Positions 2,861-13,934 of a stretch of 46,520 nt of DNA are shown here, piece by piece. The DNA lies in the NCBI GenBank assembly GCA_015066445.1, contig SVOK01000013.1, positions 1 to 46,520 of the forward strand, in the 5' to 3' direction. Source of the stretch: Oscillospiraceae bacterium (GTDB taxonomy: Bacteria; Bacillota; Clostridia; Oscillospirales; Acutalibacteraceae). Each line of letters begins with the position of its first letter. The first letter of the stretch is position 1. The notes beneath the pieces were generated by a model that had not been told where the DNA came from, searched no databases, and worked only from the letters and a program-made list of their open reading frames with translations. A program made the position numbers and the translations under genes.

Positions 2861-4432
2861 TTAAAATTCAACAATAGTATTATTTTTAACAGCTTCAAAA
2901 TCTTCTTCAATTTCCTTTGAAGGGGGAGCGGTTAAAAGTGAAACTACAATAATGCAGATAGATGAGAATATGAAAGCGGGAAGCAGCTCATAAATTGCAA
3001 AAGCACCGCCGAGCTTACTGATAACAAGCTTCCATAAGAATACCATACCGGCACCGCTTATCATACCTGCGATAGCACCTGCACGGTTGATACGCTTCCA
3101 GAAAAGTGAGAATACCATAAGCGGACCGAAGGTGGCACCAAAGCCTGCCCAAGCGAAGGAAACTATCTGGAAGATTACGCTGTCCTCATCCAAAGCGATA
3201 AGGATTGCAATTAAAGCTATTACAAGCAAAGTAATTCTTGTAACTAACATAACCTGCTTGTCATTTGCGTTTTTCTTTGCAACGCCTTGGAATATATTCT
3301 TTGCAAATGCTGAAGCGGCAATAAGCAAATAAGAGTCAGATGAACTGATAGTAGCTGCCAAAATACCTGCCATTACAAAGCCTGCTAAAATTGGAGGAAG
3401 AGACTTTGTTGCAAGAGTAATAAATATGCTTTCAGCACCTGATTTTGTGAGGTGCTCTGTAGGATAAAGCTGTCTTCCTACAATACCGATAAATACAGCA
3501 ACAGCAAGAGAGATTACAACCCAAATCATAGCAATTCTTCTTGAACGCTTTAATTCGTCCTCTCGTCTGATAGCCATAAAGCGAAGAAGTACCTGAGGCA
3601 TACCGAAGTAACCGAGACCCCAAGCAAGCATAGAGCAAACGCTTAAGAATCCGTAAGGAGCGGCATCACCGAATTTGGGAGCACCGTTAACAACGATTTG
3701 CTCACCAACTTCGTTAAGCTCAGGAGTAGCCAGACCAAAGAACTCTAAAAATCCTGGAATTTCACTTGCATTATCAATTACAGCACCCATACCGCCTGCA
3801 TTAACAACACCGATAATAACAATAACAGTTAATGCTATTATCATAACGATAGCCTGCATAAAGTCTGATGCACTTTCAGCCAAGAAGCCGCCTAAAATAG
3901 TATAAAGCAGAACGAATACAGCTCCTATTATCATCATAGCGATATAAGGCGTACCGAACAGGGTAGAGAAAAGCTTTCCGCAGGTTACAAAGCAGCTTGC
4001 TGCATAAACTGTAAAGAAAATTAAGATAAACAGCGCTGCCAAAGTCATAATAATCTTGTTTTTCTCACGGAATCTGTTAGAGAAAAATTCAGGTAAGGTT
4101 ATAGAGTTGTTAGCTCTTATACTGTAACGGCGAAGTCTTTTTGAAACTATAAGCCAGTTAAAATATGTACCAACTGCAAGACCGATAGCAGTCCAAGCGG
4201 CATCTGCCAGACCGCACCAATATGCAACACCAGGGAGTCCCATCAAAAGCCAACCGCTCATATCGGAAGCCTCAGCGCTCATAGCGGTAACCCATGGGCC
4301 TAAAGAACGTCCTCCTAAGAAATAGTTTTCGGAGCTTTTGTTAGCTTTTTTAGCAAACAAAACACCTATTGCGATAACTACAGCCATATAAATTGCCATA
4401 GCAATCAAAATCTGTATGGTATTACCGTCCAT
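2861..4432 (-). CDS. putP: Sodium/proline symporter, PutP-type (SSS family)
   Basis: A member of the sodium:solute symporter family (SSSF), most like PutP, which imports L-proline with Na+. Its 523 residues are almost entirely hydrophobic helices (about 13 membrane segments expected for the family). Family-typical stretches are visible: YFLGGRSLGPWVTAMSAEASDMSGW near residue 40 (sodium-site region) and ILAATISSSDSYLL around residue 360. The start ATG lies after AAAAGGAGATG, a strong ribosome binding site. The gene is monocistronic, with its own promoter back-to-back with the aromatic operon promoter and a palindrome between the -10 and the RBS. Proline as substrate is inferred from overall likeness; pantothenate or another solute cannot be fully excluded. 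Confidence 0.88.
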   Translation of the reverse strand: MDGNTIQILIAMAIYMAVVIAIGVLFAKKANKSSENYFLGGRSLGPWVTAMSAEASDMSGWLLMGLPGVAYWCGLADAAWTAIGLAVGTYFNWLIVSKRLRRYSIRANNSITLPEFFSNRFREKNKIIMTLAALFILIFFTVYAASCFVTCGKLFSTLFGTPYIAMMIIGAVFVLLYTILGGFLAESASDFMQAIVMIIALTVIVIIGVVNAGGMGAVIDNASEIPGFLEFFGLATPELNEVGEQIVVNGAPKFGDAAPYGFLSVCSMLAWGLGYFGMPQVLLRFMAIRREDELKRSRRIAMIWVVISLAVAVFIGIVGRQLYPTEHLTKSGAESIFITLATKSLPPILAGFVMAGILAATISSSDSYLLIAASAFAKNIFQGVAKKNANDKQVMLVTRITLLVIALIAILIALDEDSVIFQIVSFAWAGFGATFGPLMVFSLFWKRINRAGAIAGMISGAGMVFLWKLVISKLGGAFAIYELLPAFIFSSICIIVVSLLTAPPSKEIEEDFEAVKNNTIVEF

Positions 4433-4495: not shown

Positions 4496-4513
4496 TTATT
4501 TTTTAATAAAATG

Positions 4514-4542
4514 TTGACAAATGCTTAAAAAGGGAGTATTAT
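4514..4542 (+). promoter_or_regulatory. Strong sigma-A promoter of the aromatic amino acid operon
   Basis: TTGACA (4514-4519), a 17-bp spacer and TATTAT (4537-4542) make a near-perfect sigma-A promoter. Transcription would start near 4549, giving a leader of about 215 bases before the first enzyme gene. That leader contains a leader peptide and an attenuator-like structure. Confidence 0.85.
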
Positions 4543-4575
4543 TAGTAAAAATTGTTTTAAAAAGAGGTGGACAGC

Positions 4576-4647
4576 GTGTTCGTAAAATCTTATTTTCGAT
4601 TTTATTACTATATGAATGCGGACTGTCTGTACACCTGTGAAGCCTGA
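4576..4647 (+). CDS. Aromatic-rich leader peptide of the aro/phe/tyr operon
   Basis: A 23-codon reading frame with a GTG start at 4576, five bases after the ribosome binding site AGAGGTGG (4563-4570), ending in TGA at 4645. Residues 6-12 read YFRFYYY, so six of seven codons are Phe or Tyr, and eight of 23 residues overall are aromatic. It lies between the operon promoter and a terminator-like hairpin that precedes the first structural gene. This is the layout of classical transcription attenuation, in which a ribosome stalls at Phe/Tyr codons when the charged tRNAs are scarce and so allows an antiterminator to form. The peptide itself need have no function. Peptide, SD and promoter are read directly from the sequence; the attenuation mechanism is inferred. 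Confidence 0.75.
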   Translation: MFVKSYFRFYYYMNADCLYTCEA

Positions 4648-4680
4648 AGCGTAAGCTTTATTTCATATTTTACAGTCAGC
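4618..4680 (+). promoter_or_regulatory. Candidate antiterminator pairing in the aro leader
   Basis: GACTGT (4621-4626), just past the Tyr codons, can pair with ACAGTC (4672-4677). After one mismatch, GC (4618-4619) pairs with GC (4679-4680). The 3' arm shares bases 4678-4680 with the downstream terminator stem, so the two structures compete. A small hairpin around 4645-4660 (TGAAGC with GCTTTA) would sit inside it. Pairing was found by eye, without energy calculation. Confidence 0.45.
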
Positions 4681-4730
4681 CTGCTTTTCGTCGTGCATTA
4701 AGCATTGCGATTTGCGGGTTTTTATTTTTT
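4678..4730 (+). terminator. Attenuator terminator before the aromatic operon
   Basis: A compound stem: AGCCTGC (4678-4684) with GCGGGTT (4714-4720), containing G-T wobbles, encloses TCG/CGA (4691-4693/4708-4710) and TGC/GCA (4694-4696/4702-4704). It is followed by a run of T broken by one A (4719-4730). It ends 33 bp before the first enzyme gene, so it can only make sense as a conditional terminator. Confidence 0.55.
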
Positions 4731-4763
4731 GAAAACTTTTAGCTTTGTAAGGAGAATACAAGT

Positions 4764-5948
4764 ATGATTTCTGAAAAGATGATGGGTCTTGGCAAAAAAC
4801 GCTCGGTTATAAGAGAAATTTTCGAGTACGGCAATAAAAGAAGACAGGAAATAGGAGCTGAAAATGTTTTTGATTTCAGCCTCGGTAATCCGAGCATTCC
4901 TGCTCCTGAGTTTGTTAATGAGACTATGAAAAGGCTTATTACTGAAAAGGATAGTGTGGCTCTTCACGGCTACACCTCAGCTCAAGGCGCACTTCCTGTA
5001 AGACAGGCGATAAGCGACCATATAAATAAGCGATTTTCAATCGGCGCTACACCCGACCTTTTATACATGACCTGCGGTGCGGCGGCTTCGCTCACAATTA
5101 CACTTAATGCTTTAATTAATTCGGGTGACGAGGTTATCGTTTTAGCTCCGTTTTTCCCAGAGTACCGTGTATTTGCCGAAAAGGCAGGAGCAGAAATCAA
5201 GGTTGTTAAATGCAGAGAAAATGATTTACAGATAGATTTCACTGCCTTGGAAAACGCCCTCACCAAAAATACAAAGGCTATTATTGTAAATTCTCCCAAT
5301 AACCCGAGCGGTGTGGTTTTAAGTGAAGATACAATTAAGGAATTAGCAGAGCTGCTTAATAAAAAGAGTGCTGAATTTGGTACTGATATTTATATCATTG
5401 CAGACGAGCCTTACCGCGAGCTTGTATACGGTGATGTGGAAGTACCTTATATTCCAAGCTATTACAATAATACAGTAGTTTGTTATTCTTACAGTAAATC
5501 TCTTTCCTTACCGGGGGAGAGAATAGGTTACATATTTGTTTCTCCAAGGCTTGAGAATTGTACTGATGTTTATGCTGCTGTTTGCGGTGCAGGCAGAGCG
5601 TTAGGCTTTGTGTGTGCTCCGAGTCTTTTACAGTATACAGTTGCTGAATGTTTAGGACTTACAGGCGATATTTCTGTATATGAGAAAAACCGTAATATTC
5701 TTTATAATGCGCTTACCGAGTATGGCTATACTGCTGCTAAGCCCGACGGTGCGTTTTATCTCTTCATAAAGTCTCCTGAAGCTGACGCTAACGCATTTTG
5801 CGAGAGGGCTAAAAAGTATGAGCTGCTTTTAGTTCCTGGTGATGATTTCGGTTTCCCGGGATATGTTAGAATAAGCTACTGCGTAAGTACGGAAATGATA
5901 GAAAAATCGTTACCAAGCTTCCTAAAGTTAATTAAAGAATACAGGTGA
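4764..5948 (+). CDS. Class I/II PLP aminotransferase, probably aromatic
   Basis: A 394-residue fold-type I PLP enzyme of the aspartate/aromatic aminotransferase superfamily. Landmarks are NSPNNPSG near residue 176, ADEPYRELVYG (the Asp that contacts the PLP ring nitrogen) near 213, and SYSKSLSLPGER, in which K245 should form the Schiff base and the Arg lies on the phosphate/substrate side. The start ATG follows AAGGAGAATACAAGT. As first gene of an operon that ends in phenylpyruvate and 4-hydroxyphenylpyruvate (pheA, tyrA), it most likely performs the final transamination to Phe and Tyr. The substrate is inferred from context, since family members with aspartate or alanine specificity look alike. 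It is separated from pheA by only 4 bp. Confidence 0.88.
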   Translation: MISEKMMGLGKKRSVIREIFEYGNKRRQEIGAENVFDFSLGNPSIPAPEFVNETMKRLITEKDSVALHGYTSAQGALPVRQAISDHINKRFSIGATPDLLYMTCGAAASLTITLNALINSGDEVIVLAPFFPEYRVFAEKAGAEIKVVKCRENDLQIDFTALENALTKNTKAIIVNSPNNPSGVVLSEDTIKELAELLNKKSAEFGTDIYIIADEPYRELVYGDVEVPYIPSYYNNTVVCYSYSKSLSLPGERIGYIFVSPRLENCTDVYAAVCGAGRALGFVCAPSLLQYTVAECLGLTGDISVYEKNRNILYNALTEYGYTAAKPDGAFYLFIKSPEADANAFCERAKKYELLLVPGDDFGFPGYVRISYCVSTEMIEKSLPSFLKLIKEYR

Positions 5949-5952
5949 GAAT

Positions 5953-7041
5953 ATGACAGAGCTAGAAACTGCCAGACAAATTATTAATTCTGTTGACAAG
6001 CAGATGGCAGAGCTTTTTGAGCAGCGAATGGACGCCGCTAAAAAGGTGGCAGAATATAAGCGTTTGCACGGAATACAGGTTACTGATGCCGCACGCGAGG
6101 CAGAGGTTATAAAAAGAAATTCCGAGCTTATTAAAAATGAGGATTACAAATCATATTATATTAATTTTTTGCAGCATAATATGGATGTTTCAAAAAATTA
6201 TCAGCACCGCCTTTTAGAGGGAATGCGTATAGCTTTCAGCGGTGTTGAGGGCGCTTTTGCAAATATTGCCGCTAACAAGGTTTTCCCTGATGCAGTGGCA
6301 GTACCTTACCCTGATTTTAAAACTGCTTACAATTCTGTGGTTGACGGAGAATGCGACTGTGTTATTCTGCCTATAGAAAACAGCTATAACGGTGATGTGG
6401 GTCAGGTTATGGACCTTGCGTTCTTTGGCCCATTGTATATTAACGGTGTTTATGATATCGGTGTGGTTCAGAATTTACTTGTTGTTAAGGGAACTACTAT
6501 GGATCAGGTAAAGCAGGTTATAAGTCACCCACAGGCGTTAGGTCAGTGTGCAAGCTATATAAAGAAACATGGATTTGAGACTATAGAGGCTGTAAACACA
6601 GCGGTTGCCGCAAAACAGGTAGCTGAAATGGGCAGACACGATATTGCCGCTATCGCAAGTGACGAGGCGGCTGAGAAATATGGGCTCAAAAAATTAGAGG
6701 CGCATATTAACGAAAGCAATAATAACACTACCCGTTTTGCTGTATTTTCACGCAGTGCAAAAACTCCCTCTAAAGACGATAACCACTTTATTATGCTGTT
6801 TACCGTTACTAATGAGGCAGGCTCTTTGGGTAAAGCAATATCAATTATAGGTGAAAACGGTTTTAACCTTAAAGCACTTAAAAGCCGACCTACAAAGGAG
6901 CTTATCTGGAGCTATTATTTCTTCGCTGAGGGCGAGGGTAATATTAACGGCGATAACGGTAAAAAAATGATGGAAGAATTAAAAAATAAATGCAGCGAAA
7001 TTAAAGTAATAGGCAGTTTTGAGAAAGAAATTGCTTTATAG
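5953..7041 (+). CDS. pheA: Bifunctional chorismate mutase / prephenate dehydratase (P-protein)
   Basis: It converts chorismate to prephenate and then to phenylpyruvate. Three domains are visible. Residues 1-85 are an AroQ-type chorismate mutase helix bundle (RQIINSVDKQMAELFEQRM... KVAEYK). A prephenate dehydratase domain starts near M91 (MRIAFSGVEGAFA) and carries the catalytic TRF at 260-262. A C-terminal ACT domain (about 278-357, TVTNEAGSLGKA) includes LKSRP, the counterpart of the ESRP phenylalanine-binding motif, so feedback inhibition by Phe is expected. Length 362 is normal for the fused enzyme. It is second in the aromatic operon. Confidence 0.96.
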   Translation: MTELETARQIINSVDKQMAELFEQRMDAAKKVAEYKRLHGIQVTDAAREAEVIKRNSELIKNEDYKSYYINFLQHNMDVSKNYQHRLLEGMRIAFSGVEGAFANIAANKVFPDAVAVPYPDFKTAYNSVVDGECDCVILPIENSYNGDVGQVMDLAFFGPLYINGVYDIGVVQNLLVVKGTTMDQVKQVISHPQALGQCASYIKKHGFETIEAVNTAVAAKQVAEMGRHDIAAIASDEAAEKYGLKKLEAHINESNNNTTRFAVFSRSAKTPSKDDNHFIMLFTVTNEAGSLGKAISIIGENGFNLKALKSRPTKELIWSYYFFAEGEGNINGDNGKKMMEELKNKCSEIKVIGSFEKEIAL

Positions 7042-7050
7042 GAGAAATTT

Positions 7051-8061
7051 ATGATAATACCCGTAAAAACCTCTACAGGAGAATATAACATTGTTTTAGA
7101 GCGAGGCGCATTATCACAGCTTAATAAGCATTTGAAACTTAATAGAAAGGTGCTTATTGTAACGGATAGCGGTGTGCCCGCAGAATATTCAAAAATCGCA
7201 GCAGCGCAGTGCAAAGAGCCTTATATCGTAACTATCCCCGAGGGAGAAGCCTCAAAATGCTTTGATAATTATAAAATGCTACTCGGGAAAATGGTTGAAT
7301 TCGGGTTTACCCGTAGCGATTGCGTTATGGCTGTAGGCGGCGGTGTTGTGGGGGACCTTTCGGGGTTTGTGGCAGCTTCATTTATGAGGGGCGTAGATTT
7401 TTACAATATCCCTACAACGGTGCTGTCTCAGGTAGATTCCTCTGTAGGGGGAAAGGTTGCAATAGATTTTGAAGGCTATAAAAATATTGTGGGTGCTTTT
7501 TATCCGCCTGGGGCTGTAATTATAGATTCAGATACCTTAAAAACCTTACCTCAAAGACAGATTTCAAACGGACTTTCTGAGTCGGTTAAAATGTCTCTCA
7601 CTTCGGACGAAAAGCTGTTTGAGCTTTTTGAAAATGAGGAAATAATGCCTAATATCGACCCTATTATCGAAGCCTCACTTAAAATTAAAAGATATGTTGT
7701 AGAGCAGGACGAAAAAGAGGGGGGACTTCGTAAAATCTTAAACTTTGGTCACACCTTGGCGCACGCTATTGAAAGTGAAAATGAAATGCAGAATTTATAT
7801 CACGGGGAATGTGTTGCGCTTGGTATGATTCCAATGTGTGCAGACGGAGTAAAACCCCGTTTAATAAAAGTTTTAGAAAAGCTTAATTTGCCTACAACTG
7901 TGGATTATGATACCGATATTATTATCGAGGCTATGCGTCATGATAAAAAAATGTCAGGAGACGAAATTACAGTTGTTTATGTGCCAAGTGTGGGCACATT
8001 CCAAATGAAAACAATGCCTTTTAGCGAATTAGCAAAAGAGTTTAAAGGAATGAAACAGTAA
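7051..8061 (+). CDS. aroB: 3-dehydroquinate synthase
   Basis: Second shikimate-pathway step: DAHP to 3-dehydroquinate, NAD- and metal-dependent, cytoplasmic. The NAD-binding GGGVVGDLSGFVAASFMRG, the following PTTVLSQVDSSVGGK, and the metal-ligand regions LSESVK, NFGHTLAHAIE and YHGECVALGM are all present in family order. At 336 residues it is slightly shorter than typical AroB, mainly at the C-terminus. An AGGAGAAATTT ribosome site precedes the ATG. The stop overlaps the aroC start by one base (TAATG), indicating translational coupling. Confidence 0.96.
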   Translation: MIIPVKTSTGEYNIVLERGALSQLNKHLKLNRKVLIVTDSGVPAEYSKIAAAQCKEPYIVTIPEGEASKCFDNYKMLLGKMVEFGFTRSDCVMAVGGGVVGDLSGFVAASFMRGVDFYNIPTTVLSQVDSSVGGKVAIDFEGYKNIVGAFYPPGAVIIDSDTLKTLPQRQISNGLSESVKMSLTSDEKLFELFENEEIMPNIDPIIEASLKIKRYVVEQDEKEGGLRKILNFGHTLAHAIESENEMQNLYHGECVALGMIPMCADGVKPRLIKVLEKLNLPTTVDYDTDIIIEAMRHDKKMSGDEITVVYVPSVGTFQMKTMPFSELAKEFKGMKQ

Positions 8062-9152
8062 TGAAAAATACTATTGGACAAAATGTTTCACTTACCATTT
8101 TCGGCGAAAGCCACGGTGACAGTATCGGCGCTGTTATTGACGGTTTAGCACCTGGTATTGCGGTGGACGAGGAGTTTATAAAAAATCAGCTTTCTCTTCG
8201 CCGTCCTGTGGGAAGTATTTCTACACCAAGGGTTGAAGCGGATAATTTTCGGATTATAAGCGGTGTTTTTGAAGGCCGTACTACAGGCACTCCTATTTGT
8301 ATAGTTATTCCTAACGAAAACACAAAATCAAAGGACTATAGTGAAATCAGGAGCAAAGCCCGTCCCGGTCACGCTGATTTTACAGCTTACGAGAAATACC
8401 ACGGTTTTGAGGATTATCGTGGCGGCGGTCATTTTAGCGGAAGAATTACTGCAGGAATTGTAGCCGCAGGCGCTATTGCAATATCTGCATTAAATAAGAA
8501 GGGTATTTATATCGGTACTCACATATCTCGTTGCGCTAATATCAGTGACGCTTCTTTTACCGATTATAAAACCGACATTCTGTCACTTAATAAAAAACAG
8601 TTTGCAGTTATTGACGATACTGTGGCAGAAAAAATGCAAAATGAAATTGTAAAGGCTAAGTCAGAAGGCGACAGCGTAGGCGGTGTGCTTGAAACTGCGA
8701 TTATAGGTATGCCGCAGGGTGTTGGTGAGCCTTGGTTTGACAGTATAGAGAGTCTGTTATCCCACGCTTTATTTGGTATTCCTGCTATTAAGGGTGTTGA
8801 GTTTGGCGGTGGTTTTGCGCTTGCTGATATGCTTGGTAGCGGGGCTAATGACAGCTTTTATGTTGACGGTGATACCGTTAAAACCAAAACCAATAATAAC
8901 GGCGGTATAAACGGTGGAATTACTAACGGAATGCCTGTTATATTCCGTTGCGCTGTAAAACCCACACCGACTATCAGTAAAACCCAGCAAACGGTTGATT
9001 TTATTAAAACAGAGAACACCGAGCTAATAGCCGGCGGCAGACACGACCCTTGCATAGTTCACAGAGCACGTGTTGTGGTTGACAGTATAACCGCTTTAGT
9101 TCTTTGTGATATATTATCGGGCAGATTTGGTACAGATTGGTTGGCAGATTAA
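8061..9152 (+). CDS. aroC: Chorismate synthase
   Basis: Last common step: EPSP to chorismate with a reduced FMN cofactor. The 363-residue protein begins TIFGESHGDSIG, with the first signature histidine. It contains RPGHADFTAYEKYHG and DYRGGGHFSGRITAGIVAAGAIA, the standard flavin/substrate motifs, and ends near GGRHDPCIVHRA. Both junctions, with aroB and aroE-aroK, use a one-base TAATG overlap. Confidence 0.97.
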   Translation: MKNTIGQNVSLTIFGESHGDSIGAVIDGLAPGIAVDEEFIKNQLSLRRPVGSISTPRVEADNFRIISGVFEGRTTGTPICIVIPNENTKSKDYSEIRSKARPGHADFTAYEKYHGFEDYRGGGHFSGRITAGIVAAGAIAISALNKKGIYIGTHISRCANISDASFTDYKTDILSLNKKQFAVIDDTVAEKMQNEIVKAKSEGDSVGGVLETAIIGMPQGVGEPWFDSIESLLSHALFGIPAIKGVEFGGGFALADMLGSGANDSFYVDGDTVKTKTNNNGGINGGITNGMPVIFRCAVKPTPTISKTQQTVDFIKTENTELIAGGRHDPCIVHRARVVVDSITALVLCDILSGRFGTDWLAD

Positions 9153-10405
9153 TGAAATACGGACTTATTGGTGAAAAGTTAGGACATAGCTTTTCAAAAA
9201 TAATACATAGCGAATTAACAGATTACGATTATGAGCTAAAGGAAGTAGCAAAAGATGAGCTTGACAGCTTTATGAGAAAAGCTGATTTCAAGGCTATTAA
9301 TGTTACAATTCCTTATAAGCAGGACGTAATTCCATATCTTTATGAGATAGATGAAACCGCAAAGGCTATAGGCGCAGTCAATACTATAGTAAATAAAAAC
9401 GGCAAGCTTTACGGCTATAATACCGACTTTTTAGGTTTAAAGTCGCTTATAGAGAATGCGAAAATCACAATAAGAAATAAAAAGGTTATAATTCTCGGTA
9501 GTGGCGGCACTTCAAAAACCGCTCTTGCAGTGGCTAAGAGTATGGGCGCTAAAGAGGTTTACCGCGTTTCAAGAAAAGGCGGAAACGGACTTATAACCTA
9601 TAACGAAGCCGAAAATAGTCACAACGATGCTGAGGTTATTATTAACACAACCCCTTGCGGAATGTATCCAAATATAGGCGAAGCAGCGGTCGGGATAGAT
9701 AAATTCACAAAGCTTGAGGGCGTTGTTGACGCTATTTATAACCCTCTTAATTCTTTCCTTGTAACAAGTGCAAAGGAAAAGGGAATTGCAGCTACAGGCG
9801 GACTTTATATGCTTGTGGCTCAGGCGGTTTTTGCGGCAGAAAAATTTACTGACAGTATAATTGATAAATCTGAAATAGACCGCATATACAATAAGATTTT
9901 CAACCAAAAAAGAAATTTAGTGCTTATTGGTATGCCGAGCTGCGGTAAAACAACTATTGGCAAAGCAATAGCCGAGCAGTTGGGTAAAGAGTTTATTGAC
10001 AGCGATGATGAAATTGTTAAAAAACAGGGAATGCCAATTCCTGAAATCTTTGAAAAATTCGGTGAAAAGCATTTCAGAAATATAGAATCAGAGGTAATTG
10101 CAGAATTATCCTTAAAGCAATCGTCTGTAATAGCAACAGGCGGCGGAGCAGTGCTTAATAGGCGGAATGTGGATTTACTTAAAGAAAACGGATTGGTTGT
10201 TTTTATAGACAGACCGTTAGAAAAGCTTATTACTACTGATGACAGACCGCTTTCAAGTAACAGAGAGCTGCTTACAAAAAGATATAACGAAAGATACGAT
10301 ATATATTGCTCATCAGCAGATATAATTGTAAATTCCGATTGTGATTTAGAAGAAAACATCGGTCGGGTAAAAGAGGCGTTTTTAAATGAAAATTCTTGTA
10401 ATTAA
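9152..10405 (+). CDS. aroE-aroK: Shikimate dehydrogenase-shikimate kinase fusion (AroE-AroK)
   Basis: A fused enzyme for two consecutive steps: 3-dehydroshikimate to shikimate (NADPH) and shikimate to shikimate 3-phosphate (ATP). Residues 1 to about 254 are AroE: LGHSFSK at 10-16 (usually GHSxSP), NVTIPYK with the catalytic Lys, GAVNTI, GYNTDFLG, the dinucleotide loop ILGSGGTSK and NTTPCGMYP. Residues from about 257 are AroK: Walker A GMPSCGKT at 260-267, DSDDEI, FRNIES, ATGGGAV and the lid DDRPL. The ATG at 9152, overlapping the aroC stop (TAATG), is preferred over an upstream TTG at 9137. The ORF runs through without a break, so this is a true fusion rather than two overlapping genes. Confidence 0.93.
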   Translation: MKYGLIGEKLGHSFSKIIHSELTDYDYELKEVAKDELDSFMRKADFKAINVTIPYKQDVIPYLYEIDETAKAIGAVNTIVNKNGKLYGYNTDFLGLKSLIENAKITIRNKKVIILGSGGTSKTALAVAKSMGAKEVYRVSRKGGNGLITYNEAENSHNDAEVIINTTPCGMYPNIGEAAVGIDKFTKLEGVVDAIYNPLNSFLVTSAKEKGIAATGGLYMLVAQAVFAAEKFTDSIIDKSEIDRIYNKIFNQKRNLVLIGMPSCGKTTIGKAIAEQLGKEFIDSDDEIVKKQGMPIPEIFEKFGEKHFRNIESEVIAELSLKQSSVIATGGGAVLNRRNVDLLKENGLVVFIDRPLEKLITTDDRPLSSNRELLTKRYNERYDIYCSSADIIVNSDCDLEENIGRVKEAFLNENSCN

Positions 10406-10820
10406 CGGACCTAATATTAATATGTTAGGTATAAGAGAGCCTGCAATTTACGGTAGTGAAAATTTTGCCACACTTTGCGGTAATATTGAAAGCTATGCGA
10501 AAGAAAACGGAATTGAAGTTAAACTTTTTCAGTCTAATCACGAGGGCGATTTGGTGGACGAAATTCAAAAAGCCTATAATCAGTTTGATGGTATTGTAAT
10601 AAACCCTGGCGCTTATACTCACACAAGTATAGCTATTTTGGACGCTGTAAAGGCGGTGGGTATTCCCACAGTTGAGGTTCATATTTCTGATGTTTCCAAG
10701 AGAGAGGATTTCCGTCAGGTAAGCTATATAAGAGCAGCCTGTGTTAAGACTATTGCAGGTCATGGAATAAAGGGATATATAGAGGCAATAGAATTTTTAG
10801 TTAGCAATTACGGTGAATAA
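10386..10820 (+). CDS. aroQ: Type II 3-dehydroquinate dehydratase
   Basis: Third shikimate step: dehydration of 3-dehydroquinate by the small dodecameric type II enzyme. The 144-residue length and motifs fit: ILVINGPNINMLGIREPAIYG at the N-terminus (with the catalytic Tyr), FQSNHEGDLVD, INPGAYTHTSIAI with the catalytic His region, and VEVHISDVSKREDFRQ. The ATG lies 20 bases inside the aroE-aroK reading frame, so expression is probably coupled. Confidence 0.96.
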   Translation: MKILVINGPNINMLGIREPAIYGSENFATLCGNIESYAKENGIEVKLFQSNHEGDLVDEIQKAYNQFDGIVINPGAYTHTSIAILDAVKAVGIPTVEVHISDVSKREDFRQVSYIRAACVKTIAGHGIKGYIEAIEFLVSNYGE

Positions 10821-10823
10821 TAA

Positions 10824-12029
10824 ATGACAGTTAAAATTAATAAAAGCACTGCTTTCGGCAGAATTTCGGCACCGCCGTCTAAAAGTATGGCGCACAGATA
10901 TTTGATTTGCGGAGCATTGTCGGGCGGAAGTGTAATAAAAGGAATTGATTATTCCGAAGATATTAAAGCAACACTTGGCTGTCTTGAAGCATTAGGGGCT
11001 GAAATTAAAGCCGAGGACAGCGGTATCACAATAGGCGGTATTAACCCCTTGGAGCCTATTAAATCCAATAAGCTTTTTTGCAATGAAAGTGGAAGCACAT
11101 TAAGGTTTTTAATACCGATTTGTCTGCTGTTTAATAGCGAGATAACTCTTTCAGGCACAGAACGACTTTTCAGCCGTTCGTTATCGGTTTATGAGGAAAT
11201 CTGCGCCGCTCAGGGAATAAGCTTTATTAAAACCTCAAACAGCGTTACTTTAAAGGGTAAGCTTAAAAGCGGTAAATATTCTGTAAGAGGAGATATCTCA
11301 AGTCAGTTTATAAGCGGTCTTATGTTTGCTCTCTCACAGTTGCCGGAAGACAGCACAATTGAAATCGAGGGTACTATTGAGAGCGGCTCTTATTTAAGCC
11401 TTACAATAAAGGCACTTGCTGACTTTGGGGTAAGAATAAGCCGCGTTGATGAGAGAACAATTTATATCAAAGGCGGTCAAACCTGCAAGAAACGGAATAT
11501 TACAGTTGAGGGAGACTATTCTAATGCTGCGTTTTTAGATGCCTTTAATTTGTTTGGCGGCAATGTAATGGTAAAGGGGCTTAGCGATAAAAGCGTTCAG
11601 GGAGACAGGGTTTATAAAGATAAATTCGCAGAGCTTGAAAAAGGCTTTGCTTCAGTGGATATTTCTGATTGCCCCGATTTAGGACCTATACTTATGGCGG
11701 TAGCAGCGGCTAAGAATGGTGCGGTTTTTACAGGCACTAAGCGTCTTAAAATAAAAGAAAGTGACCGTGGCGAGGCTATGAAAGCTGAGCTTTCAAAATT
11801 TGGGTGCGAGTGTTTAGTAGAAGAAAATAAAATCACTGTAAAGGGCGGCGAGCTTAAAGCTCCTGAAAGACCCTTGCTTGGCTACAATGACCACAGAATA
11901 GTAATGTCTATGGCGGTGCTTGCAAGTGTTACAGGCGGTGAAATCTTAGGCGCAGAGGCTGTGGCAAAAAGCTATCCCAGATTTTTTGAGGATATAAAAG
12001 CATTAGGTATTGATGTTGAGGCGATTTAA
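10824..12029 (+). CDS. aroA: EPSP synthase (3-phosphoshikimate 1-carboxyvinyltransferase)
   Basis: It joins shikimate 3-phosphate and phosphoenolpyruvate to EPSP. Visible motifs are PSKSMAHRYLI near residue 13 (substrate lysine and serine), GDISSQFISGLMFAL, the aspartate in DCPDLGPI, LKIKESDRGEAM, and YNDHRIVMSMAVL near the C-terminus. The PEP-loop segment is CNESGSTLRF rather than the GNAGTALRP of enterobacterial (class I) enzymes, so it resembles the divergent Gram-positive forms. At 401 residues it is shorter than the usual 425-430. It is immediately followed by tyrA with no gap. Confidence 0.95.
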   Translation: MTVKINKSTAFGRISAPPSKSMAHRYLICGALSGGSVIKGIDYSEDIKATLGCLEALGAEIKAEDSGITIGGINPLEPIKSNKLFCNESGSTLRFLIPICLLFNSEITLSGTERLFSRSLSVYEEICAAQGISFIKTSNSVTLKGKLKSGKYSVRGDISSQFISGLMFALSQLPEDSTIEIEGTIESGSYLSLTIKALADFGVRISRVDERTIYIKGGQTCKKRNITVEGDYSNAAFLDAFNLFGGNVMVKGLSDKSVQGDRVYKDKFAELEKGFASVDISDCPDLGPILMAVAAAKNGAVFTGTKRLKIKESDRGEAMKAELSKFGCECLVEENKITVKGGELKAPERPLLGYNDHRIVMSMAVLASVTGGEILGAEAVAKSYPRFFEDIKALGIDVEAI

Positions 12030-12893
12030 ATGAAATTAATTAAAAAGGTGAATATTTTAATAGTAGGCTTAGGTCTTTTGGGCGGCAGCTATGCCAAGGG
12101 TCTTAAAAAATTGGGCTTTACAGTTAATGCAATCACAAAGGATAGATTTTCTATAGACTATGCTATGGAAAACGGCATAATTGATAACGGCACAACTGAT
12201 GTTAACCCTGAAATGGTAGCCGAGGCTGATTTAGTTGTGTTTGCGCTTTATCCGCATACCTTTATTGAATGGATAAAGGCTAATCAGCAGTATTTTAAAA
12301 GCGGAGCGGTTATCACCGATGTTACGGGTGTTAAAGGCTGTGTTGTTCACGAAATTCAGGATATTTTGAGAGAAGATGTAGAATATATAGCCGCTCACCC
12401 GATGGCAGGTAAAGAGGTTTCGGGCGTAGTTAACAGTGATGATACTATTTTTAAAGGCGCTAACTATATAGTAGTTCCTACCGAAAAAAACACTCCTGAG
12501 GCTATTGAGCTTTGCAGAAATCTCGGTGAAATATTAGGCTTTAAGCAGGTGGCAGAGCTAAGTGTTGAGGAGCATGACAGAATGATAGCATTCCTGTCAC
12601 AGCTTACCCACTGTATTGCCGTATCGCTTATGTGCTGTAACAATACTCCGGGTCTTGAAAGCTATACGGGTGACTCTTTCAGGGACCTTACCAGAATTGC
12701 CCGAATTAATGATGAAATGTGGAGCGAGCTGTTTTTGAGCAACCGTGAGGTTTTGCTTGAGGAAATGGAGCGTTTTCGCAGTTCGTTTGATGAGCTTTAT
12801 GAAAAAATTAAGGACGGCGACCGTGACGGTATGCGCCAGATGATGCGTCTGTCCACTGAACGCCGAAAGCTGTTTGACAAGAAAGATAAATAG
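12030..12893 (+). CDS. tyrA: Prephenate dehydrogenase
   Basis: Oxidative decarboxylation of prephenate to 4-hydroxyphenylpyruvate, the tyrosine branch. The 287-residue protein opens with a Rossmann NAD site, VGLGLLGGSYAKGL. It contains DVTGVKG, the substrate motif AAHPMAGKEVSGV with the catalytic histidine, and QLTHCIAV in the helical dimerisation domain. There is no fused chorismate mutase or ACT domain, so tyrosine feedback on this enzyme is not obvious from sequence. The ATG directly follows the aroA stop codon. Confidence 0.94.
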   Translation: MKLIKKVNILIVGLGLLGGSYAKGLKKLGFTVNAITKDRFSIDYAMENGIIDNGTTDVNPEMVAEADLVVFALYPHTFIEWIKANQQYFKSGAVITDVTGVKGCVVHEIQDILREDVEYIAAHPMAGKEVSGVVNSDDTIFKGANYIVVPTEKNTPEAIELCRNLGEILGFKQVAELSVEEHDRMIAFLSQLTHCIAVSLMCCNNTPGLESYTGDSFRDLTRIARINDEMWSELFLSNREVLLEEMERFRSSFDELYEKIKDGDRDGMRQMMRLSTERRKLFDKKDK

Positions 12894-12902
12894 GTGAATG
12901 AT

Positions 12903-13934
12903 ATGAATTTGGATTTTAAAAGAAAGCTACCAATACCTCAACAAATAAAAACACGCTATCCTTTAACCCCTGATTTGGAGGCTATAAGAGACGAGCGTGC
13001 TTTGGAGCTAAAAAAAATATTCACAGGTGAAAGCAATAAATTTGTACTCATAATTGGTCCTTGCTCTGCCGATAACAGAGAGGCTGTGCTTGATTATATT
13101 TCAAGACTTCGCACTGTGAGTGAAGAGGTTAAGGATAAAATCTTTATCGTTCCCCGTATTTACACCAACAAGCCCCGTACTACAGGCGACGGCTATAAAG
13201 GCATGCTTCATCAGCCTGATCCTGATGAGACACCTGATATGCTTAAAGGCATTGTAGCTATAAGAGATTTACATATGGCGGCTTTAAAGGATTACGGCTT
13301 TACCTGTGCAGACGAAATGCTTTATCCCGATAATTACCGTTATTTATCTGATATTTTAGCTTATGTAGCTGTGGGCGCACGCTCGGTTGAAAATCAACAG
13401 CACCGCCTTACCGCAAGCGGTATAGAAGTTCCTGTAGGTATGAAAAATCCCACAAGCGGCGACCTTTCTATTATGATGAACTCAATCACAGCAGCTAAAC
13501 ACCGCCATACCTTTATATACAGAGGTTGGGAGGTTACAAGTCAGGGTAACCCATTAGCTCACGCAATAATGCGAGGCTATATTGACTATGCAGGAAAGAG
13601 CGTTTCCAACTATCACTATGAGGACCTTGTAAAGCTTTATGATATTTATGCCGAATCAGGTTTAGGTAACCCTGCCGCAATAATAGATACAAACCACGCA
13701 AACTCAGGCAAAAAATATCTTGAGCAGATAAGAATTGCAAAGGATGTTGTTTATAGCTGTAACCATAATAGTGATATCCGCAAAATGGTAAAGGGTCTTA
13801 TGATAGAAAGCTATATCGAGGACGGCGCACAGAAAATAGGCGAGCATATTTACGGCAAATCTATTACTGACCCTTGTCTTGGTTGGGAAAAGACACGAGA
13901 GCTTATTTATAAAATAGCCGATACCTTGGAGTAA
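12903..13934 (+). CDS. aroF: DAHP synthase, class I (AroF/AroG/AroH type)
   Basis: First committed step: erythrose 4-phosphate and PEP to DAHP. The class I-alpha pattern is clear: LIIGPCSADNREA, PRIYTNKPRTTGDGYKG, GARSVENQQHR, PVGMKNPTSGD, TFIYRGWE and IDTNHANSGKK (metal ligands C, H, E, D). The ATG at 12903 is preferred over a GTG at 12894, because AGGTGA (12892-12897) is properly spaced only for the ATG; this gives 343 residues. It is unusual that the pathway's entry enzyme is encoded last in the operon. Its end overlaps the convergent araC-type gene by 28 bp. Confidence 0.94.
   Translation: MNLDFKRKLPIPQQIKTRYPLTPDLEAIRDERALELKKIFTGESNKFVLIIGPCSADNREAVLDYISRLRTVSEEVKDKIFIVPRIYTNKPRTTGDGYKGMLHQPDPDETPDMLKGIVAIRDLHMAALKDYGFTCADEMLYPDNYRYLSDILAYVAVGARSVENQQHRLTASGIEVPVGMKNPTSGDLSIMMNSITAAKHRHTFIYRGWEVTSQGNPLAHAIMRGYIDYAGKSVSNYHYEDLVKLYDIYAESGLGNPAAIIDTNHANSGKKYLEQIRIAKDVVYSCNHNSDIRKMVKGLMIESYIEDGAQKIGEHIYGKSITDPCLGWEKTRELIYKIADTLE

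Follow-up and report, generated by a model that had tools for sequence, protein, structure and literature searches.

A predicted Phe/Tyr leader-peptide attenuator family upstream of clostridial operons for aromatic amino acid synthesis

Our analysis of a stretch of 46,520 nucleotides from an Oscillospiraceae bacterium (GCA_015066445.1, contig SVOK01000013.1, positions 1-46,520, here called the window) identifies a conserved RNA element in front of an operon for phenylalanine and tyrosine synthesis, which most probably (about 90%) acts as a ribosome-mediated transcription attenuator sensing charged tRNA-Phe and tRNA-Tyr. Observed are a short reading frame and its conservation, three covarying helices, the spacing between the aromatic codons and the helices, a promoter-like site and the gene context; from these we infer ribosome stalling, the order of events, the cellular outcome (termination or read-through) and the dominant one of the two amino acids. 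An initial annotation had proposed a Phe/Tyr attenuator for the whole aromatic operon, and in outline this proposal is supported by the conserved frame, the covarying stems and the aromatic contexts, the mechanism itself being deduced from them. Its individual parts were also recovered, namely a near-consensus promoter, a 23-codon GTG frame with a Shine-Dalgarno sequence (SD) and an aromatic run, and stems with a T-rich terminator before the aminotransferase gene (Table 1).

Table 1. Features of the leader region and its surroundings in the window.
Feature	Position	Strand	Remark
Sodium:solute symporter gene	2861-4432	minus	divergent from the operon
Promoter TTGACA-17-TATTAT	4514-4542	+	11 of 12 consensus matches; predicted transcription start near 4549
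Leader SD AGAGG	4563-4567	+	8 bases before GTG
Strand 1, GGTGGACAG	4566-4574	+	overlaps leader SD; partner 4627-4635; covarying helix
Leader peptide frame, (M)FVKSYFRFYYYMNADCLYTCEA and stop	4576-4647	+	GTG start, 23 codons; conserved in relatives
Phe/Tyr codons 6, 7, 9-12 of the leader frame	4591-4611	+	
Strand 2, CGGACTGTCTGT	4619-4630	+	alternative partners: strand 1 (via 4627-4635) or strand 3
Strand 3, ACAGTCAGCCTG	4672-4683	+	antiterminator partner of strand 2; overlaps terminator 5' arm
Intrinsic terminator	4678-4729	+	AGCCTGC 4678-4684 with GCGGGTT 4714-4720 (strand 4), inner stem, T-run
Aminotransferase ATG	4764	+	first operon gene
Nine-gene operon, aminotransferase to DAHP synthase	4764-13934	+	co-transcription predicted from spacing and strand

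The leader lies within a gap of about 330 bases between the divergent symporter gene and the operon, and translation of its frame gives VFVKSYFRFYYYMNADCLYTCEA, followed by the stop codon. The first gene of the operon encodes an aminotransferase of the PRK06836 type; the others are pheA, whose product combines chorismate mutase and prephenate dehydratase, aroB, aroC, an aroE-aroK fusion, aroQ, aroA, tyrA and a DAHP synthase gene of the aroFGH type. Together they cover the complete pathway that begins with the first step of shikimate synthesis and leads to phenylalanine and tyrosine. The names given to the prephenate dehydratase part, AroE-AroK, AroA and TyrA denote the best match only, since these matches stay below the NCBI curated whole-protein cut-offs. 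A single frame of 422 amino acids (9137-10405) encodes both shikimate dehydrogenase (AroE) and shikimate kinase (AroK) as a fusion. The closest relatives of the aminotransferase among the matches listed come from genomes named 'Clostridia bacterium' and 'Oscillospiraceae bacterium' (84-81% identity). On the other side of the gap, beyond the symporter gene, a frame of 523 amino acids at 1191-2762 gave no Pfam match at E<=0.01; it is followed in that direction by a recombinase-domain gene (44-1039).

The conservation of the leader frame was evaluated at 110 loci around relatives of the aminotransferase, consisting of the best 30 from the family (where 38 of 200 genomes matched) and the best 80 of 433 from a second search; four duplicates and three loci lacking usable upstream DNA (L054, L057, L070) were dropped. 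A leader was scored at a locus if, within 300 bases upstream, the best short frame preceded by an SD contained at least four Phe or Tyr in seven residues. This was found at 36 of the 54 loci with pheA downstream and at one of the 49 where pheA was not found, compared to 48/1080 and 18/980 in the respective shuffled controls. With at least five aromatic residues in seven, the counts were 31/54 and 0/49, and 8/1080 and 3/980 for the shuffles. At two of the 49 loci (L039, L112) pheA would not be visible because fewer than 400 bases are available downstream. A chance short frame is ruled out by the shuffles together with the control loci, and it is the operon, not the aminotransferase gene, to which the leader is tied.

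The last four codons of the run encode Phe or Tyr in 36, 36, 35 and 33 of the 36 aligned leaders. Within the run Phe and Tyr exchange for each other and some third positions change between C and T, while not a single Trp codon occurs across the 36 leaders. In all of them the frame is intact from the start codon to strand 2, which in the window codes for the end of an Ala codon, for Asp, Cys and Leu, and for the beginning of a Tyr codon. Moreover, the first base of the last Phe/Tyr codon lies 8-17 nt from the start of strand 2 in 36/36 leaders, a distance at which strand 2 would stay accessible beside a stalled ribosome but be covered by one that keeps moving. When the 110 bases preceding the leader were examined, the best promoter match had TTGACA in 33 and TTGACT in 3 leaders, with a spacer of 17 and TANNNT in 36/36; these sites end 22-47 nt before the leader start in every case, as a plain count without shuffle control. 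A further feature of the run is an Arg at its third codon (4597-4599 and the corresponding position in relatives), which is encoded by CGA in all 18 leaders that have it. CGA is often a slow codon, and it may contribute to the timing of ribosome and polymerase.

Folding of the leader RNA (4549-4763) was compared with that of shuffled sequences and gave a z-score of -2.5 (4 of 200 shuffles as good), and for the segment 4626-4735 the score was -4.4 with none of 200 shuffles as good. In the latter fold, AGCCUGC (4678-4684) pairs with GCGGGUU (4714-4720), followed by an internal loop, an inner stem and the T-run. A simple pattern scan had missed this terminator, its sole hit being at 6399; the structure was revealed by folding.

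Three helices covary in two sets of sequences: strand 1 with strand 2 (the SD helix, 1:2), strand 2 with strand 3 (the antiterminator, 2:3) and strand 3 with strand 4 (the terminator, 3:4). The first and the last are each mutually exclusive with 2:3. In the alignment of 36 leaders, 80.6% of the cells of the 12-pair antiterminator are paired, with two-sided changes in 8 pairs; on 57 sequences the values are 81.4% and 9 of 12 pairs. For the seven pairs of the terminator, 97.2% of the cells are paired (95.7% on repeat), with compensatory changes in four pairs. The nine pairs of the SD helix all show two-sided changes, with 63.3% of the cells paired in the 36 leaders and 62-63% over both evaluations in fixed register, a value which is low partly because the SD spacing shifts by one base in some rows. 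When the partners were offset by one, two or three columns, all three helices lost paired cells and covariation score. By single measures the picture is less uniform: 62 of 500 shuffles had at least as many terminator pairs with two-sided changes, 344 of 500 at least as many further pair types, and the SD helix has 34 doubly changed cells when shifted by +1 against 30 in the true register.

In a register-free test, the energy of the duplex formed by strands of one and the same leader was compared with that of duplexes with strands from other leaders (5000 permutations), a design in which shared ancestry is reduced, not fully removed. The first set comprised 29 of the 36 leaders, after leaving out L047 and L049, which are misaligned at the 5' end, and relatives at least 80% alike. 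Own strands paired better than foreign ones, with -13.1 versus -10.2 kcal/mol for 1:2, -15.7 versus -13.3 for 2:3 and -15.0 versus -12.2 for 3:4 (z -6.2, -4.75 and -6.2), and none of the 5000 permutations was as good for any helix. The own partner was the single best one in 7, 6 and 4 of the 29 leaders, respectively. The control pairs of the SD strand with strand 3 and of strand 2 with strand 4 gave no signal in these leaders and were flat again in the second set. This second set, 27 of 31 rows outside model building that were found by the model and passed the same filter (excluding L155 and an antisense match in L150), yielded z-scores of -7.3 (1:2), -4.0 (2:3) and -6.7 (3:4). Here 2:3 is the cleaner test, because the aligning model includes 1:2 and 3:4 but not 2:3. 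The alignment across relatives, which the initial annotation had suggested as a check, thus found the aromatic codons and compensatory stem changes conserved.

In the order of events that we infer for the switch, a shortage of charged tRNA-Phe or tRNA-Tyr would stall the ribosome at codons 6-12, with its front reaching strand 2 or stopping slightly before it. Strand 2 would then be free to pair with strand 3, taking up the 5' arm of the terminator, and RNA polymerase would enter the operon. When both tRNAs are plentiful, the ribosome would cover strand 2, reach the stop codon and depart. The released strand 2 would be caught by strand 1, that is by the leader's own SD, so that the leader would be shut to further rounds of translation; with 1:2 paired, strand 3 would be left to the 3:4 terminator and transcription would end. 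If initiation failed, 1:2, which is made first, would favour the terminator and the operon would be kept off.

Folding with a masked ribosome, likewise suggested earlier as a check, reproduced the expected switch in part. In the window leader, as long as strand 4 has not been made, a ribosome with its A-site at codons 6-12 allows 2:3 to form, one at codons 15-22 does not, and with the ribosome at the stop codon 1:2 prevails (6.9 versus 1.6 pairs). The full leader did not switch at equilibrium: 3:4 is present with at least four pairs in 29 of 34 leaders without a ribosome, in 27 of 34 averaged over the Phe/Tyr run and in 32 of 34 at the stop. Averages over the 34 leaders separate the ribosome states only partly, and less cleanly than the window leader. 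Before strand 4 and without a ribosome, 2:3 beats 1:2 (mean 8.8 versus 2.1 pairs), and with the ribosome at the stop 2:3 persists in 15 of 34 leaders. Since the terminator forms in nearly every state, the switch would have to rest on kinetics beyond equilibrium folding; attenuators are kinetic devices, and equilibrium folding therefore decides neither way.

The same helices would be needed if the choice between antiterminator and terminator were made by a small ligand or by a protein regulator (for instance a TRAP-like one), with leader translation being secondary, since any attenuator requires exclusive and conserved 2:3 and 3:4 pairings. Some of the leaders are, moreover, highly conserved in nucleotide sequence around the CGATTTTATTA run, which would be in line with such control. 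Leaders regulated by TRAP have tandem (G/U)AG repeats that overlap the antiterminator. The conserved SD-preceded frame, the exchange between Phe and Tyr without Trp and the narrow spacing from the run to strand 2 point instead to translation, so that we regard control by a protein or ligand as improbable. The dominance of the terminator in equilibrium folds at nearly all ribosome positions could furthermore suggest that the leader acts mainly on translation, or that a constitutive terminator is combined with re-initiation, in either case with no sensing of tRNA charging. This would leave the covarying 2:3 antiterminator without a role, and the aromatic run fits the pathway in the contexts seen; we rate this explanation as very improbable. 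Least probable of all, with hardly any weight, is a T-box that senses uncharged tRNA directly next to an incidental short frame: T-boxes are frequent in Firmicutes and the window's genome has eight matches to RF00230, seven of them above the cut-off, but all lie on other contigs, the window has no match at gathering level, and the leader frame, its Phe/Tyr run and its phase are conserved.

The window gave no match at gathering level to any Rfam family, and thus a T-box or another Rfam family was rejected as identity of the leader; the five sub-threshold matches at 4500-4800 (E 0.13-7) include neither a T-box nor a leader family. The T-box matches elsewhere in the genome precede trpB, asnS, thrS and a leuA-like gene. 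Two of the T-box matches lie close to each other (G000:C37:73246-73483 and 75848-76096), one of them just below the cut-off, and by eye the proteins behind them start like a regulator with HTH and cupin domains and seem to continue into another domain.

The distribution of the element was studied using two covariance models, the first applied to the window's genome, the order and the class, the second to the family and the phylum. The searches over many genomes were strictly filtered and missed weak copies, so that their counts are lower bounds. With the first model we found one copy in the window's genome, copies in at least 30 of 295 genomes of the order (families f1, f15, f16, f17, f19, f20 and f23) and in at least 7 of 341 genomes of the class; the second detected copies in at least 16 of 200 genomes of the family and at least 2 of 398 of the phylum, one of the latter being the window's own. 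In the 47 carrier genomes pooled from the window-genome, order, class and family searches, every copy precedes a gene of the aromatic pathway. The first gene behind it is an aminotransferase, pheA or AroF, and in one genome (G770, locus L155, E 3e-4) a DAHP synthase of the B. subtilis type. Because copies precede different first genes, the element appears to follow the pathway rather than one gene. Among 30 loci not identical to the training leaders, the automatically picked frame had at least four Phe/Tyr in seven residues in 27; L138 and L154 had three and L140 had one. L155 (1480-1660) has a divergent Phe/Tyr leader, MMRHDSYYYAYSFYYFSPKD; the genes behind it encode the B. subtilis-type DAHP synthase and a TyrA-like protein, and its genome contains a TrpE match.

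The occurrence of the same operon in related genomes without the leader had been named in advance as an argument against the proposal. Such loci do exist (18 of 54), and they include the close relatives L036 and L037, whose aminotransferases are 81% and 78% identical, while 36 of 54 carry the leader. The flanks of the leaderless operon loci, L054 with its missing upstream DNA included, contain no Rfam family at gathering level except one tRNA, and no T-box. Elsewhere in the genomes of the same loci the element has no credible copy; a single weak match (E 0.003) has no aromatic gene nearby. A search of the 23 genomes with a leaderless aminotransferase locus gave two real copies elsewhere and one false match. 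In these two genomes (G800 and G801, with the no-pheA loci L039 and L043), the element sits before a pheA gene at another place in the genome.

A sensor for phenylalanine and tyrosine only may be able to run the common pathway because little else drains chorismate in these genomes. In the window's genome, a type-I search found a single DAHP synthase family match, which is the operon's own, and no chorismate-binding enzyme of the TrpE/PabB type was found in this 87% complete assembly. A lone trpB stands behind a T-box (G000:C17:46878-47111), and the organism may rely on indole salvage rather than making tryptophan from chorismate. A TrpE-like match is present in 3 of the 47 carriers and in 10 of the 33 non-carriers compared with them (Fisher p 0.006), a count confounded by kinship in that the window's family supplied all 33 non-carriers. 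When only carriers with a completeness of at least 90% are taken, the ratio is 1/30 versus 10/24 non-carriers other than those with a leaderless operon (p 0.001), the 24 having been chosen from those listed, mostly very complete, with six further non-carriers left out. The leaderless genomes that possess the operon have no TrpE-like match either (0/9), so that absence of the tryptophan branch seems to accompany the operon and not the leader itself.

Overall, our data make it fairly plausible, with less confidence than we place in the attenuator itself, that these observations describe one undescribed RNA family, with members in seven families of a single order and outliers elsewhere in the class, whose strand 1 is the leader SD. 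A single reading of charged Phe- and Tyr-tRNA would close both leader and operon, one switch could govern all chorismate synthesis since most carriers lack the tryptophan branch, and the element would have remained linked to the pathway while the first gene varied. This provides a conserved and testable case of aromatic leader-peptide attenuation in apparent Clostridia, in a genome that has T-boxes before other amino acid genes. It raises the questions why a T-box lineage uses a peptide sensor for phenylalanine and tyrosine and whether loss of the tryptophan branch permits one Phe/Tyr sensor for the common pathway. The family could be entered into Rfam and may aid the annotation of aromatic operons in uncultured bacteria.

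Transcription attenuation by leader peptides is textbook knowledge for the enteric trp, phe and his operons, whose leaders we take to be the Rfam families Phe_leader, Trp_leader and His_leader. With the enteric pheL/pheA, trpL and his leaders our element shares a short peptide rich in the product of the pathway, the strands 1:2, 2:3 and 3:4, and a terminator before biosynthetic genes. It differs in its mixed Phe/Tyr run, in its position before a whole operon leading from shikimate to phenylalanine and tyrosine, and in the absence of even a sub-threshold match to an Rfam leader. Strand 1 of the enteric leaders lies within or after the peptide codons, whereas here it is the leader's own SD.

In Firmicutes, leader-peptide attenuators of ilv-leu operons have been reported for Staphylococcus aureus and others (PMC5794164) and for Listeria (PMC5864092). 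They share the mechanism and differ in sensing branched-chain amino acids and in the genes controlled. A His leader-peptide attenuator was predicted before hisS/hisZ-type genes in Bacilli, where it replaces T-boxes; the authors stated in 2010 that, ermC apart, no such attenuators were known outside Proteobacteria and Actinobacteria (PMC2965389). It is likewise a predicted leader-peptide attenuator of Firmicutes and differs in amino acid (His), in its genes of the tRNA-ligase type and in its occurrence in Bacilli. Closer in context is the uORFC-13-1 motif, a predicted Phe upstream frame with a terminator before aroF of Acholeplasma, whose 24 examples are reported only from Acholeplasma and environmental DNA (PMC8632094). 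Two shikimate-associated uORF candidates with Phe and Tyr codons were described in 2019 (PMC6429828). Both reports share with the present family upstream Phe codons, and in the 2019 candidates also Tyr codons, before shikimate genes, the latter comparison being based on the published description.

The initial annotation's contrast between Firmicutes, with T-box or TRAP control, and Proteobacteria, with stalling leader peptides, was too strong, given the Firmicutes attenuators for branched-chain amino acids (PMC5794164) and, as predicted, for his (PMC2965389), and it is weakened further by the Phe or Phe/Tyr frames predicted before shikimate genes (PMC6429828, PMC8632094). In the literature that our search covered, which had incomplete journal coverage and did not extend to supplements, we found no description of the present family before clostridial aromatic operons. 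The leader-peptide mechanism in general is thus already known; what is new is the present family, the use of its own SD as strand 1 and the link to genomes that lack TrpE.
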